This document shows, in pieces, positions 9,533 to 53,919 of a stretch of 64,000 bases of DNA. The position numbers were made by a program, and so were the translations under genes. Position 1 is the first letter of the stretch; the number at the start of each line of letters is the position of its first letter. The DNA comes from Planctomycetaceae bacterium (lineage in GTDB: Bacteria; Planctomycetota; Planctomycetia; Pirellulales; Pirellulaceae), in assembly GCA_005778405.1 (NCBI GenBank), contig SXOA01000174.1, positions 1 to 64,000 of the forward strand. The letters run 5' to 3'. Under the pieces are notes generated by a model. It was not told the DNA's origin and did not search any database. It saw nothing but the letters and a program-made list of their open reading frames with translations.

Positions 9533-10909
9533 ATGCTCAACCTGGGCCGGCAAATCGCGAAAGTCTGCGGCCGCACCACGCGGCGAGAGCTGCTCCGCGC
9601 CGGCGGCATTGCCGCGGCCGGGTTGTCGCTGGCGGATTTGCTGCGGCTGGAAGCGCGGGGACAAAACGAAACGCCGAAGAAAGCAAAGTCGGTCATTCTG
9701 CTTTGGCTCTGGGGAGGGCCGAGCCATCTCGATACGTTCGATATGAAACCCAAGGCCCCGGTCGATTACCGTGGGCCGTACGCGCCGGTCCCGACGCGCG
9801 TCCCCGGCATACAGATCTGTGAGCTATTTCCACTGCTCGCGTCCCGGGCGGACAAATATTCCATCTTGCGGTCGCTACACCACACTTCCAATGATCATGG
9901 CATCGGCGGCACCATAGGCCTGACGGGCTCGGATAGTGGGGCCATCAGCCTCAGCGGGCAGGTCTTATCGGGTCAGGTCAAGGCGACACACGGCTCCGTC
10001 GTCTCGCGGGTGCTCGGCTTTTCGCCGGAGATGCCCCGGTTCGTCACGATGGGAGGGACGCTGCATCAGGGGAAGAAGTCCATTACCGGTGAAGGGGCCG
10101 GCCCGCTCGGCGCACTCTACGATCCGTTCCGTCTCGACTATGACGTGCAACAAGGGGTTAAGATTCCGTCGCTCGACCTCATCGACGGCAATTCCGCCAG
10201 CGGCCTCGCTTCCCGCGAAGGGCTCCGGAAGCAGATGGACTCCCTGACGCGGGACCTCGAATCCTCACCAGCAGCCGAGCGGCTGGACAAGTTCTATCAG
10301 CAGGCATTGTCGCTCCTCACCGCGCCGAATGCCCGCCGCGTCTTCGACCTGAATGAAGAGCCCGAGAAACTTCGCCGGGCCTACGGCAAGTTCCGCTTCG
10401 GCCAGTGCTGCCTGATGGCCCGCCGCCTGGTGCAATCCGGCGTCCGCTTCGTGCAGGTCAACTGGAGCTCGCACGTTGAGCCAATCGAGGACACCGGCGA
10501 CGGCGGCTGGGATATGCACGACCGGAACTTTCAGCAGATGCAGGACCGTCATGCTTGGATGCTCGACCAGTCGCTCTCGGCGCTGCTCGACGACCTGGAA
10601 AGTCACGGCCTGCTCGATGAAACCGTCGTCATCGCGATGGGAGAATTCGGCCGCACCCCCAAGATCAACGGCAAAGCGGGGCGGGATCATTGGAACCAGT
10701 GCTTCAGCGCTCTCGTCGCGGGTGGCGGCCTGCAGCAAGGCATTGTCATCGGCGAAAGCGACGCCCGCGGCGAACATCCCGCCAGCCGGCCTGTCACCCC
10801 GGCCGACCTGTTCCGCACCGTCCTCCATCAGCTCGGCATCGGCACTACGCAGCTCACCACCGCCGGCCTGCCGCTGCAAGGGGAAGTGATTGAGGAACTG
10901 GTCGGATGA
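9533..10909 (+). CDS. DUF1501 domain-containing Tat-exported protein
   Basis: A 458-aa product with a twin-arginine signal at its N-terminus (TTRRELLRAGGIAAAGLSL, RR at residues 17-18). The body carries the DUF1501 hallmarks LWLWGGPSHLDTFDMKP, FPLLASRADKYSILRSL, SGVRFVQVNW, DETVVIAMGEFGRTPKI and GRDHWNQCFS. DUF1501 proteins are alkaline-phosphatase/sulfatase-fold relatives, greatly expanded in Planctomycetota and usually near cytochrome-like DUF1549/DUF1553 partners, none of which is adjacent here. Frame-compatible TTG and ATG codons at 9506/9509 exist, but the Tat n-region has normal length from 9533. Confidence 0.9.
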   Translation: MLNLGRQIAKVCGRTTRRELLRAGGIAAAGLSLADLLRLEARGQNETPKKAKSVILLWLWGGPSHLDTFDMKPKAPVDYRGPYAPVPTRVPGIQICELFPLLASRADKYSILRSLHHTSNDHGIGGTIGLTGSDSGAISLSGQVLSGQVKATHGSVVSRVLGFSPEMPRFVTMGGTLHQGKKSITGEGAGPLGALYDPFRLDYDVQQGVKIPSLDLIDGNSASGLASREGLRKQMDSLTRDLESSPAAERLDKFYQQALSLLTAPNARRVFDLNEEPEKLRRAYGKFRFGQCCLMARRLVQSGVRFVQVNWSSHVEPIEDTGDGGWDMHDRNFQQMQDRHAWMLDQSLSALLDDLESHGLLDETVVIAMGEFGRTPKINGKAGRDHWNQCFSALVAGGGLQQGIVIGESDARGEHPASRPVTPADLFRTVLHQLGIGTTQLTTAGLPLQGEVIEELVG

Positions 10910-11865
10910 AATCGGTAGGGTGTATGAGCGCAGCGAAATACACGCGTCGAGCGGTGTCCATTACGCGTGCATTTCGCTGCGCTCATGCACCCTACTTGTT
11001 TTGTGCCTTTTTGTGTCTTTCGTGGCCATCCCCGCCCCTGGTTTTTGGTCAAGCTTCAGCACCCAGTCGCCTCACCACCGATGGCCATTTCAAACAGCGG
11101 CCAGTCTGGTCGCCCGATGGGAAGTCGCTGCTCTTTACCCGGCATCAGGGGGCGACGATCTTCCTCTTTGTCCTCACTACCGAGAACAAGACCGAACGCC
11201 GGCTGACGGCCAACACTTATCCAGAGTTCGACGCGGTCTATTCCCCCGATGGGAAGCGGATTGCCTTTTCGTACGACAAGGCTTCCCCCAACCAGGGAGA
11301 CATCGACGTTAATAGTTGCCTGACCGATGGAACGGACATCAAGGTAGTGGCCGGCACCGAAGGGAAGCTCTCGCACGAAGAGTGGCCGAGTTGGTCCCCC
11401 GACGGCCAGTGGATCGCGTACTCCTGCACGAAGCACGACAACCAGGAAATTTACATCGCCAAAGCGGATGGCAGCGAAAAGAAGCGGCTCACCACCGACC
11501 CAGCTCTCGATGCCCATCCAGCCTGGTCGCCGGACGGGAAGAAAATCGTCTTCGCCACCAGCCGCTGGGGAGATTTGGAACTGGCCGTGATGAACGCCGA
11601 CGGCAGCGAGCTAGTCCGATTGACCAAGAGCCCCGGCCTGGACGACTACCCCGCTTGGTCGCCGGACGGCAAGCGGCTGGCCTTCACCAGCAACCGGGAC
11701 GGCAGTCTGGAAATCTACACCATCGACCCCGATGGCCAGAACCCACGCAACGAAACACAGAGCCCCGCCATCGACAACTTCGCCTCCTGGACGAAAGATG
11801 GCCGGCTGACGTTCGTCTCCAATCGCGAGAATGGGTTTGATGTGTACGTCGCGCCGCTGCCCTAA
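10906..11865 (+). CDS. TolB-like PD40 beta-propeller, exported
   Basis: A 319-aa product read from an ATG overlapping the DUF1501 stop (ATGA). It has six blade repeats built on WSPDGK (PVWSPDGKSL, AVYSPDGKRI, PSWSPDGQWI, PAWSPDGKKI, PAWSPDGKRL, ASWTKDGRLT), typical of TolB/PD40 propellers that act as periplasmic scaffolds. The signal region ends near VFGQA/SAP. Residues about 4-30 are encoded by a palindromic element (10915-10995), so the native start may lie downstream, for example TTG at 10996, which would leave a 20-residue hydrophobic leader. Start confidence is low; gene identity is firm. Confidence 0.85.
   Translation: MKSVGCMSAAKYTRRAVSITRAFRCAHAPYLFCAFLCLSWPSPPLVFGQASAPSRLTTDGHFKQRPVWSPDGKSLLFTRHQGATIFLFVLTTENKTERRLTANTYPEFDAVYSPDGKRIAFSYDKASPNQGDIDVNSCLTDGTDIKVVAGTEGKLSHEEWPSWSPDGQWIAYSCTKHDNQEIYIAKADGSEKKRLTTDPALDAHPAWSPDGKKIVFATSRWGDLELAVMNADGSELVRLTKSPGLDDYPAWSPDGKRLAFTSNRDGSLEIYTIDPDGQNPRNETQSPAIDNFASWTKDGRLTFVSNRENGFDVYVAPLP
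10915..10995. repeat. Paired inverted GTAG-headed hairpin element (REPIN-like)
   Basis: The left arm at 10915-10946 begins GTAGGGTGTATGAGCG and the right arm at 10964-10995 is its inverse, matching at 30 of 32 positions. Each arm can form its own hairpin: GTGTAT/ATACAC on the left, GTGCAT/ATGCAC on the right. The two differences between arms are compensatory for these stems. Both outer ends are GTAG when read inward, the head recognised by REP-specific transposases in enterobacteria. The element follows the DUF1501 stop by 5 bp and lies inside the predicted 5' coding region of the TolB-like gene. Confidence 0.8.
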
Positions 11866-14753: not shown

Positions 14754-16139
14754 TTGCCCATCTCCGTCACGTGTCCTCAGTGCAGCACCACGCTCAAGGT
14801 CAAGGATGAGCTGGCGGGAAAACGCGGCAAGTGCCCCAAGTGCCAGGGAGCCGTGCAGATACCCGCGGCGAGCGCCGCGGAGACGAAGCCCGCACCCCCA
14901 TTCGCGCCACAACCTGCGAAAAAGACTTCACTATCGGCGGAAGAGCGGCGAGCGAGGGTTCTCGGCCTCCTTTCCGGCCCGATGGAAAAACTGTCGGCCC
15001 CATTTTCCTTCCGCTTGCGGATGTTCATGGCGGCGACGGCGACTTGCCTGTTGCCGGCGCTCTACGCTGTGCTGGTGACGCTGTTTCTCGGCGGCGCGGT
15101 GATGTGGTTTCTGTATGCACCTTCGATCGTCGGCAGTGGCGCAGTGCTCCTCTATGGTCCGGTAGCTGTGCTGCTCATCATCGGGCTCGCGCTGCTCAAG
15201 CCGCTGATCGCTCCGCGTCCCGCGAAGGGCAAGGTCAAATCACTCGCGCGTGACAAAGCGCCGCTGCTGTTTGAATTTGTGGACAAGATTGCGGCTGCGT
15301 TGAATGCGGAAGGACCGAAGCAAATCACCGTCGATGGCAACCCGGATTTTCACGGTTCAAGGTCGCACCTGCACATCGGCCTGCCGCTCGTGGCCTGTTG
15401 CACCGTAGACCAGTTGGCGGGAATGATCGCCCATGAATGTGGCCGCCATGTCAAAGGAACCGCGTCTGGAACAGCCAGCTTTGTCCGGGGCATCAGCCAC
15501 TTCTTCTTCCGGGCCGTCAAGCAGCGCGATGCCTGGGATGAGTCGATCTATGCCGCCACAACCAGCCGCCGCTCTGTATTGGGCAAGCTGCTCTGGCCGC
15601 TTAGGATCTTGTTTTCGCTCGTCAAGATCCTGCTCTGGCCGCTAATGTACTTGGGGCAACTGTTTTCTGGATTGCTACTGCAAAAAACCGAGTTTGACGC
15701 TGACCTCTGTCAAATCCGTCTCATCGGCAGCGGTCCTTATGAAGCCACGTTCCGCACGCTGCGGGTCATCGATTTTGCCTGGAAACAGGTCCAGGCGGAT
15801 CTTGTCTTCCAGCACAAGGAAAACCAGCTTCCCGACAATCTGCCTCGGCAACTGGAGAGCGCCGTTGCCCAAATCCCGGACGAATTCCGTGCTGGCCTCG
15901 CCGTTGAGGCTGATACCACCGAAACGGCCGATTTCGCCCTCATGCCCGCCGAGAAGGACCGCCTTGCCGCCGCAATTGCCGCTGCCTCGCCTGGTATTTA
16001 TTCCTGTCCGCTCCCCGCGACAGTCCTCTTCGACGACTTCGACTCTCTCGCCAAGGACGTGACTTGGGACTACTATCTCGTAGAACTCGGCCCGCCCCTT
16101 GAACGCCGCTTCCTGCAGCCGGTCGTGTCGGGTGCATGA
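14754..16139 (+). CDS. M48 peptidase-like membrane protein with zinc ribbon and degenerate HExxH
   Basis: A 461-aa product from TTG at 14754, preceded by GGGAG at 14743-14747. The N-terminus is an MJ0042-type zinc ribbon (CPQCSTTLKVKDELAG then CPKC). Hydrophobic helices lie at about residues 95-150 and 275-305. The region 200-330 matches planctomycete M48 (HtpX/Ste24-like) proteins, but the zinc motif reads HECGRH at 227-232, so the second His of HExxH is replaced by Arg and a His sits one place later. The third ligand in EFDAD (Glu 313) is kept. It may be a pseudoprotease. Its stop codon lies in a degenerate palindromic element. Confidence 0.8.
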   Translation: MPISVTCPQCSTTLKVKDELAGKRGKCPKCQGAVQIPAASAAETKPAPPFAPQPAKKTSLSAEERRARVLGLLSGPMEKLSAPFSFRLRMFMAATATCLLPALYAVLVTLFLGGAVMWFLYAPSIVGSGAVLLYGPVAVLLIIGLALLKPLIAPRPAKGKVKSLARDKAPLLFEFVDKIAAALNAEGPKQITVDGNPDFHGSRSHLHIGLPLVACCTVDQLAGMIAHECGRHVKGTASGTASFVRGISHFFFRAVKQRDAWDESIYAATTSRRSVLGKLLWPLRILFSLVKILLWPLMYLGQLFSGLLLQKTEFDADLCQIRLIGSGPYEATFRTLRVIDFAWKQVQADLVFQHKENQLPDNLPRQLESAVAQIPDEFRAGLAVEADTTETADFALMPAEKDRLAAAIAAASPGIYSCPLPATVLFDDFDSLAKDVTWDYYLVELGPPLERRFLQPVVSGA

Positions 16140-16167
16140 TCGTCAACGAAATGCACGCGTAATCGAC
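16130..16167. repeat. Degenerate half copy of the 10915 hairpin element
   Basis: GGGTGCATGA at 16130-16139, followed after 7 nt by CGAAATGCACGCGTAAT, matches the right arm of the 10915-10995 element and its flank (CGCGTAAT-GAC), with a 1-nt indel and a few mismatches in the loop. The GTGCAT/ATGCAC stem is intact; the head is GTCG instead of GTAG. The TGA inside it is the stop codon of the M48-like gene. Confidence 0.6.
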
Positions 16168-25359: not shown

Positions 25360-25578
25360 GCGGGGTCCTTCCCGAAATGTGGGGCGGGCTTCCTGTCTGC
25401 CTGTTTCCAACTACCTTCGCATCGTGCGCCAACACCTTCAGCGCATCGAGCGCAGCCCATGCCGCCCCTCTGTTATCGGTTCCGCCTGCATCAATCTTGA
25501 TACGTGGGCGAACTTTACCGCCTGCGGAAGAAATTCCCCAGAGGGAAAGCGGGCGGGATCGCTGCTGGTGCTAGCAGG

Positions 25579-26541
25579 CTAATGTCCGAACTTGTCTCTC
25601 GCTCGCACAGGGTAGCCCCGGAGGAACTCAGCAACCTCCATTACTCGCTTTCCTGCGGGTTGAAGGGCGTGGATGAAAAGTCTGCCGCTGCCGGTGGCAA
25701 TGAGAAGTTGCTTGCTGTCGCTCAGTATGACCTCGCCAGGTGGGAAGGAGCACTGCTCCGTCCTACTATCCACGGACACCTGGTCGAGCAGCAGCCGCAG
25801 CGGCTCGGCGCCGGCGCGGAGCCAGTGGGTGTAGGTGGCGGGCCAGGGTTTGAAGGCGCGGACCTGGTTGCGGATTTGCTCGGCGGTGCGGGTCCAGTCG
25901 ACCGCGCCGTCGGTTTTTTTGAGGCGGGGGGCTTTGGTGGCTTGCGATTGGTCCTGGATTTCGCCGATGGGGGAGACTCGATCCCAGCGGGAGAGTTTTT
26001 CGATGGCTTCCTGGACCGCTTCGACTCCCAAGTACGACAACTGCTGTTCCAGATTCGGCATCGTCACATTGCTGCTGATTGCCATGCGCCGCACGGCCAA
26101 ACAGGGTCCGCCGTCCAGCCGCGGCGTCATGTGGATGACGGTCACACCGGTCTCCGCATCGCCGTTGTAAACCGCCCAGTGGACCGGAGCCGCCCCGCGA
26201 TACTTCGGCAGCAGCGAGCCATGCAGATTGATTCCCCCCAGCGGCGCGACCGCCAGCAGCTCGCGCGAAAGAATCTGGCCGTAGTCGCAGACCACGAGCA
26301 AATCCGGCTGCCAGGAAGCAAGCTTCTGCCGGGCTTCTTCGGTATTGATGCTGTCGGGGGCGTAGACTTCGAGGCCGCGCTCTTCGGCTAAGTCCCGCAT
26401 GGGGTTGAGGGATGTCTTTTCACGGCCTTTGGCCGCCTGCGTAGGGCGCGTCACGAGCGCCGGCACTTCGTGTGAAGAATCGAGCAGCCACCGAAATGTT
26501 GGAACGGCAAATGGACCCGTTCCCAAGGGAAGAATACGCAT
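25579..26541 (-). CDS. fmt: Methionyl-tRNA formyltransferase
   Basis: This enzyme formylates initiator Met-tRNA with 10-formyltetrahydrofolate. The 320-aa product has GTGPFAVPTFRWLL at the N-terminus and the catalytic signature NLHGSLLPKYRGAAP with Asn 105 and His 107; the catalytic Asp is in TPRLDGG (143). The C-terminal domain (PWPATYTHW, GRLFIHALQPAGKRVMEVAEF) completes a normal length. The start at MRILPLGTG is preferred; the frame extends 12 codons further. It lies 36 bp downstream of the unknown gene that ends at 26578. No deformylase gene is adjacent. Confidence 0.93.
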   Translation of the reverse strand: MRILPLGTGPFAVPTFRWLLDSSHEVPALVTRPTQAAKGREKTSLNPMRDLAEERGLEVYAPDSINTEEARQKLASWQPDLLVVCDYGQILSRELLAVAPLGGINLHGSLLPKYRGAAPVHWAVYNGDAETGVTVIHMTPRLDGGPCLAVRRMAISSNVTMPNLEQQLSYLGVEAVQEAIEKLSRWDRVSPIGEIQDQSQATKAPRLKKTDGAVDWTRTAEQIRNQVRAFKPWPATYTHWLRAGAEPLRLLLDQVSVDSRTEQCSFPPGEVILSDSKQLLIATGSGRLFIHALQPAGKRVMEVAEFLRGYPVRARDKFGH

Positions 26542-49755: not shown

Positions 49756-49789
49756 GCGGACATTCCTGCACACGGAGTGTGCAGGCTAC
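49736..49789. repeat. Paired inverted GTAG-headed hairpins with TCC loops (REPIN-like)
   Basis: Left hairpin GTCCGCTCAC-TCC-GTGAGCGGAC at 49739-49761 (10-bp stem); right hairpin CCTGCACAC-GGA-GTGTGCAGG at 49765-49785 (9-bp stem). GTAG lies at 49736-49739 and its inverse CTAC at 49786-49789. Read from its own GTAG, each hairpin ends in CAC-TCC-GTG, so stems vary while head and loop are conserved. The aldo/keto reductase stop (49753-49755) lies in the left stem, and the MFS start at 49794 follows 4 bp after the right head. Confidence 0.85.
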
Positions 49790-49793
49790 TTTT

Positions 49794-51161
49794 ATGAAAC
49801 CAGCCGAATTATCCCCGACAAGCCGTTACATCATCCTGGTGGCGGGCTTTCTGGGGTGGATGTTTTCCGGCGTGCAGATGTCGCTGATGAACCTCGCCTC
49901 GGGTTCCGCGACGGAAGAGTTTGTTCGTAGCGGACTGTTTGAAGGCGGCGGCTCATTCCAACTCCAGAGGCTCCTCGTCGCGCCGAGGTTTCAGTCCCCC
50001 CCTAAACCAATTGCCGTTGTTCCCGCGACGCCCGAGCAGAAGGCTCAATTCAAGCAGTTCAAGCCGCGGTGGTATGCCTTTTACAACAGCGGTTTCCTGC
50101 TCGGGGCGGCAGCCGGCGGACTGCTGTTTGGCTGGATTGCGGATCGAACGGGACGGGTGCGGGCGATGGGGGCCAGCGTCCTCTGCTATTCACTGTTCGC
50201 TGGGGCCGGGTATTTTGCGGCGACTCCCGAACAATTGCTGCTGTGCCGGTTTCTCTCCGGCATGGGGGTCGGCGGCATGTGGCCCACGGGCGTTTCGCTC
50301 GCATCCGAAGCCTGGTCCGATGTGTCCCGTCCCACTCTGGCCGGCCTGCTGGGACCCGCGGCCAATGTGGGCATCGTGCTGATGAGCGTGCTCTGCTGGT
50401 ATCAGCCGCTGGACTGGACTTCCTGGCGCTGGTGCCTGCTCGCGGGAAGCTCATCGATCATTCTAGGCGTCTTGGTTTTCCTCGCCGTGCCGGAGTCGGT
50501 TGCCTGGCTGAAGACAAAAACGGACACAAGCAAAAGCAAACCGGCGGGGGCTCTCACCAGCCTGCTTTCCCCTCCGCTGTTGCCGCTCACTCTGATTGGC
50601 ATTGCCCTGGGGACCATTCCGCTTCTCGGCGGCTGGGGAGTGACAAGCTGGCTCATTCCCTGGACAGAGGCAGTCCGCGGGGCGGAGGACCAAAGCGCCA
50701 AAGCCCTCACCGCCATCATGCGGGCCAGCGGCGGGGCGGTCGGGAGCCTGTTCGGCGGCTGGATTGCCAACCAACTCGGGCGACGGACGACGTACTTTCT
50801 CATCAGCCTCGGTTCCTTCGGCCTGAGCGAGTTCATCTTCCTGCGTCTGGACCCGAGCATGACCGGATTCTCCGCCGCCGTCTTCGCCGTCGGCTGTGTC
50901 AGCACAGTCTTCTTCGGCTGGCTCCCGCTCTATCTCCCCGAACTGTTCCCCACCCACGCCCGCGCGACCGGCTCAGGCATCTCCTTCAACTTCGGCCGCA
51001 TCCTGACGGCGGTCGGCGTCTTGGGAACCGGCACCATCACATCCTGGTTTCAAGAGGATTATGCCCGCGCCGGAGCCATCATGAGCCTGATCTACGCGGC
51101 CGGAATGCTGGTCATTTTGTTGGCTCCCGATACGACGAAGAACCGGGTGGGGAGCGAGTGA
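49794..51161 (+). CDS. MFS transporter
   Basis: A 455-aa protein with about twelve transmembrane helices. Motif A is GWIADRTGRVRAMG after helix 2 (with GLLFGW before it), and the second-half counterpart is GWIANQLGRRTTYF. A long first extracytoplasmic loop (about residues 40-95) contains KPIAVVPATPEQ. Proton-coupled sugar or organic-acid transport is typical of the SP/AAHS-like arrangement; substrate is not readable. The frame extends upstream to 49752 through the hairpin element; the ATG at 49794 begins the true sequence. Confidence 0.9.
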   Translation: MKPAELSPTSRYIILVAGFLGWMFSGVQMSLMNLASGSATEEFVRSGLFEGGGSFQLQRLLVAPRFQSPPKPIAVVPATPEQKAQFKQFKPRWYAFYNSGFLLGAAAGGLLFGWIADRTGRVRAMGASVLCYSLFAGAGYFAATPEQLLLCRFLSGMGVGGMWPTGVSLASEAWSDVSRPTLAGLLGPAANVGIVLMSVLCWYQPLDWTSWRWCLLAGSSSIILGVLVFLAVPESVAWLKTKTDTSKSKPAGALTSLLSPPLLPLTLIGIALGTIPLLGGWGVTSWLIPWTEAVRGAEDQSAKALTAIMRASGGAVGSLFGGWIANQLGRRTTYFLISLGSFGLSEFIFLRLDPSMTGFSAAVFAVGCVSTVFFGWLPLYLPELFPTHARATGSGISFNFGRILTAVGVLGTGTITSWFQEDYARAGAIMSLIYAAGMLVILLAPDTTKNRVGSE

Positions 51162-53859: not shown

Positions 53860-53919
53860 TGGGGTAGGCTTCCAGCCTGCCACGAACTGGCTTGCAAGGC
53901 AGGCTGGAAGCCTACCCCA
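53860..53919. repeat. Perfect 22-bp inverted repeat with GTAG heads
   Basis: Arms at 53860-53881 (TGGGGTAGGCTTCCAGCCTG...) and 53898-53919 are exact inverses with a 16-nt loop. GTAG lies at 53864-53867 and its inverse CTAC at 53912-53915. Within each arm AGGCT-TCC-AGCCT forms a short hairpin with the same TCC loop seen in the 49736 and 48711 elements. It lies 11 bp after the membrane protein stop. Confidence 0.8.

Follow-up and report, generated by a model that had tools for sequence, protein, structure and literature searches.

A palindromic element at positions 10915 to 10995 of contig SXOA01000174.1, from a Planctomycetaceae bacterium (assembly GCA_005778405.1), raises the question of what kind of element it is, and of whether the small hairpin formed by each arm, and not just the complementarity between the arms, is under selection. 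By the window we mean the whole stretch of DNA analyzed, which is 64,000 nucleotides long. The palindrome consists of two inverted 33-nt copies of one unit, separated by a 15-nt spacer (10948 to 10962) and differing at two positions. The left arm (10915 to 10947, plus strand; GTAGGGTGTATGAGCGCAGCGAAATACACGCGT in its own orientation) contains a GTAG tag, a 6-bp stem, GTGTAT/ATACAC, with T-A at position 4, a bulge with a mini-hairpin (GA-GC-GCA-GC-GAA), and the tail GCGT. The right arm (10963 to 10995, minus strand; GTAGGGTGCATGAGCGCAGCGAAATGCACGCGT in its own orientation) is the same unit with the stem GTGCAT/ATGCAC, in which position 4 is C-G, and it matches the consensus of alignment A1 without a difference. 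A sequence-only reading of this DNA had described 32-nt arms that differ at only two positions, lying opposite each other in each arm's small hairpin so that pairing is kept. Apart from the unit length, this description is borne out: both differences fall at stem position 4, one on each side. When up to 3 mismatches were allowed, a degenerate pattern of 29 nt matched only these two arms within the window, where shuffles expect 0.00.

A single (half) copy, which the covariance-model search described below also places in the family, lies at 16127 to 16160 on the plus strand. It carries the tag GTCG and an apical part unlike that of the window arms, and it retains GTGCAT/ATGCAC, the C-G form, as the sequence-only reading had said, although that reading placed it at 16130 to 16167. 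The TGA (16137 to 16139) of an upstream 500-amino-acid ORF sits inside this copy, and a squalene-hopene cyclase gene follows directly. The element at 10915 to 10995 is preceded by a DUF1501 gene, whose stop codon (10907 to 10909) it follows by five bases, and a PD40 gene lies downstream. The flanking gene families resemble those of planctomycetes. Extragenic location was assessed for these two window sites only: one lies just past a stop codon, with the PD40 frame readable as open through it, and the other overlaps a stop codon. Across 10906 to 11035 the open PD40 frame spans the repeat, which may thus supply the protein's N-terminal residues. Elsewhere in the window (53864 to 53915), a 52-nt palindrome with GTAG ends and 18-nt perfect arms perhaps represents another palindromic family.

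The unit is repeated across the genome. A covariance model built from alignment A1 (37 arms hand-picked by eye, with chance matches excluded) retrieved at least 60 arms on many contigs, a lower bound because scoring covered 150 of the 4988 candidates from the first look. A set made up of the window plus 30 loci was chosen so that no arm counts twice. A loose pattern applied genome-wide matched 21 arms, versus 0 control matches. Forty-eight of the at least 60 arms form 24 inverted pairs, and the remaining 12 are single. All 24 neighboring pairs are inverted with GTAG outward, no other arrangement of arms within 200 nt was found among the at least 60 arms, and the spacers range from −6 (tails overlapping) to 52 nt. 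A search at an E value of 0.001 through 39 other genomes, of which 24 share this bacterium's family and 15 its order, yielded no arm.

Each arm comprises GTAG, one G, a 6-bp lower stem, a bulge, a 2-bp upper stem, and a loop of 3 to 4 nt. The exact tag, unpaired beside the short hairpin, is present in 55/60 arms (counted by hand). The bulge is GA or AA facing GAA, GCA, or GCC, and the upper stem is GC/GC or GT/AC in most arms. In a subtype, AAGCGAAGCGCC, AA faces GC within the stem, as read from the sequence. The GC-GNA-GC apical part presumably resembles a very stable DNA mini-hairpin. We conclude that the repeat unit is a GTAG-tagged REP and that the pair is a REPIN, or BIME.

A candidate agent of dispersal is encoded on contig C94, where six arms lie between 48053 and 50291 (about 2.3 kb) around one gene for a REP-associated tyrosine transposase (RAYT; 49777 to 50226), with REP arms on both sides. 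The gene matches NF047646 at 177.8 bits (cutoff, 80), its sole solved-structure match is 4er8 (TnpArep; 9e-36 over 170 residues), and the HLH and YIHYNP motifs are visible. On both sides of this gene (L006:1150-1220 and about 2050-2100), the DNA is a repeat of an ORF's 3′ end, which would look like duplication of part of the neighboring gene around the RAYT gene. More broadly, repeated GTAG hairpins occurred near RAYT genes at 9/30 loci versus 2/23 control tiles of contig C169, a weak contrast in which one of the 2 positive control tiles is the window element itself. Such hairpins were present at all of the loci from the four best-scoring RAYT genomes (L072 to L075).

Dispersed inverted GTAG arms together with the RAYT cluster on C94 constitute the anatomy of a REP/REPIN/RAYT system. 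We therefore postulate, with a probability of about 0.93, that the element is a REPIN, a nonautonomous mobile repeat dispersed by the RAYT (TnpA-REP type) on C94, whose lower stem depends on being paired more than on its exact bases. Each arm, when single-stranded, would fold as its own hairpin; the RAYT would bind by reading the GTAG tag, lower stem, and bulge, and would cut or rejoin the DNA nearby. Under selection for pairing over exact bases, a C-G pair could turn into T-A if both sides changed.

Position 4 of the lower stem was examined in a structural alignment of 58/60 arms, two with truncated loops (C92:2391-2419 and C4:48947-48974) being left out. This position is C-G in 50 arms, T-A in 5, C with A in 2, and A with G in 1. 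C-A intermediates are thus seen, and T-G intermediates are absent. Counting C4:48947-48974, T-A occurs in 6/60 arms, and every T-bearing arm (6/6) has the matching A. The natural one-sided arms at L018 and L065 (C with A) lose the stem on folding. The sequence-only reading had allowed that other copies might break the short stem freely; they do not, since 336/348 lower-stem cells are Watson-Crick or G-T paired (58 arms; summed by hand). Patterns that left stem positions 3 to 6 open retrieved 21 and 25 arms, none of them outside the 60, so stem-breaking copies are not hidden by the model, at least among copies with a recognizable tag, loop, and tail.

The covariation analysis that the sequence-only reading had proposed was run with an R-scape-like script and gave a mixed answer. 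With relatedness ignored, alignment A2 (60 arms, 45 distinct) contained 6 double-changed cells versus 1.1 in shuffles (0/500 reached this value), and the association of T with A at position 4 had a Fisher p of 4.6e-6. A relatedness-aware null, in which parsimony changes were replayed on FastTree and neighbor-joining (NJ) trees, gave the position 4 pair a p of about 0.008 and 0.006, respectively; across all 595 column pairs this is not significant (E of about 4.7). An upper-stem C-G/T-A pair, T-A in 9/58 arms, also covaries (p of 0.0007 and 0.0005), with the upper-stem register picked with the data in view, so that this part of the test was not blind. For eight stem pairs summed, the observed value was reached in 2/400 and 0/400 null draws, and the other six stem pairs had no covariation of their own (p of 0.4 to 0.7). 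Strong signals also came from nonpairing columns, such as the first and last loop bases, because of subfamilies. By parsimony, T arose twice and A arose twice at position 4, or about two independent events. The compensatory change at position 4 is real, but it is statistically thin once relatedness is counted.

The sequence-only reading had gone further, taking the two differences as what selection on each arm's own hairpin would produce. This interpretation is partly supported: four REPINs carry a T-A arm, the partner arm is C-G in 4/4, and it is therefore the two sides of one arm that change together, not the two partner arms. Against it, 279/288 cells over all pairs (G-T allowed) are paired within arms versus 277/288 arm to arm; overall, intra-arm pairing is not better kept. 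By hand count, 18 stem positions differ between partner arms; at 9 of them both arms stay paired, and at the other 9 one arm loses its pair.

Partner arms also differ in their apical modules, which are unlike in 23/24 pairs (for example, GA-GC-N3/4-GC-GAA versus AA-GC-N3-GC-GCC). The window pair, with identical loops in both arms, is the single exception among the 24. One could speculate, and we hold this to be a doubtful proposition, that the REPIN is an asymmetric heterodimer by design, its apical modules differing between arms and its lower stem drifting through compensated changes. Two different bulges, one per arm, may then be required by the transposase, and the apical modules, rather than the stem, may persist when a new REP family forms.

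Similar behavior was seen beyond this family. For a second GTAG family, GTAGGCCGTCTCTCCGAGACGGCC, 20 arms were counted genome-wide within 3 mismatches, three of them on contig C149 around a RAYT-like gene (25472 to 25762), which is flanked by minus-strand arms at L010:996-1017 and 1942-1963, and one on contig C28 near another such gene. By reading, its stem CTC/GAG has become CTT/AAG (C-G to T-A) in 3/20 arms and CAC/GTG (T-A to A-T) in 1/20, and at least 4/20 have one-sided or broken states. RAYTs of the related genomes G024, G011, and G043 share 55, 48, and 48% identity with the C94 RAYT, and each has GTAG hairpins of its own. The RAYT-side REPs of G024 and G011 have stems that differ by one compensated pair, and the REP stem of G040 has A-T against T-A; pairing is kept across wholly different stems in these relatives. 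The 57 arms of G043 combine a lower stem, CCGGAAC, that bears no relation to that of the window family with an inner AAGC-N3-GCGC that resembles the subtype in this genome; among these 57 arms some one-sided stem changes were present and no double changes were seen by eye.

The strongest rival to selection on pairing accepts the same element and attributes the double change to template switching during replication, with one side of a hairpin copied from the other. The excerpts of PMC8794818 drawn on here describe such a mechanism for hairpin stems. The presence of C-A intermediates without T-G ones would suit it, as would one upper-stem double change that the NJ-tree reconstruction places on a single branch. 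Against it, the two position 4 changes, C to T and G to A, map to different branches in both trees, compensation mostly involves single pairs and not tracts, and pairing persists in the relatives even where the stems are wholly different. We therefore regard template switching as the sole source of the change as somewhat unlikely. It is compatible with selection, and both may act; selection and template-switch repair of the stem are not separated by the data here.

We give still less credit to chance or shared descent, in which the T-A arms all go back to a single altered arm and are uninformative about constraint. The few parsimony changes at position 4 and the E value over all column pairs would fit this account, but T-A is found with different apical loops, the upper stem, the second REP family, and the relatives behave alike, and the summed test of eight pairs is seldom or never matched by the null. 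Equally improbable is that the element simply serves the DUF1501 gene as a transcription terminator or mRNA 3′ stabilizer, with selection acting on the long hairpin formed between the arms: it does begin just past that gene's stop codon, the whole element folds very stably as single-stranded DNA (z of −11, mostly arm-to-arm pairing, versus modest z scores of −0.9 and −1.0 for the arms folded singly, in which the 6-bp stem is predicted), and an RNA-level role has been suggested for REPs in the part of PMC3733652 consulted, but a terminator scan, whose loop limit of 8 rules out a loop of this length, gave no hit there, the arms pair less well with each other at two positions (one T-G and one A-C) while each arm's own pairing is intact, and the GTAG tag, dispersed copies, RAYT cluster, and single arms would go unexplained.

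For the element read as a REPIN dispersed by a RAYT, three known systems are the closest. GTAG REP families, as covered in the consulted part of PMC3733652, also have an unpaired GTAG at one end, stems of 6 to 9 bp, dimers, and a RAYT flanked by repeats, and they occur in Planctomycetes; most have subfamilies with alternative complementary stem residues. Unlike them, the window family occurs in only this genome among the 40 searched. The REPINs in the excerpts of PMC3116915 are likewise units of two REPs in inverted orientation whose spacer varies, and compensatory changes on the two sides of the predicted REPIN hairpin are described there as common. Those changes apparently lie in the spacer hairpin, whereas ours lie inside the REP stem, and this genome has only about 24 pairs.

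The E. coli REP/BIME and its TnpA-REP (4er8), to the extent given in the same kind of excerpt from PMC8266576, share the GTAG tag, lower stem, internal AA-GC mismatch, and upper stem. The E. coli transposase needs that mismatch, and the AAGCGAAGCGCC subtype has AA facing GC at the corresponding place, whereas many arms here have GA facing GA; the stem sequence is also different here, and the upper stem is shorter. The analysis adds a REP family specific to this genome, along with its RAYT, and provides a small set of natural variants that bears on which parts of such a hairpin may vary. The window family is a new, genome-specific member of the REP/REPIN/RAYT systems, and compensated stem changes like the one in the palindrome are familiar from such repeats.
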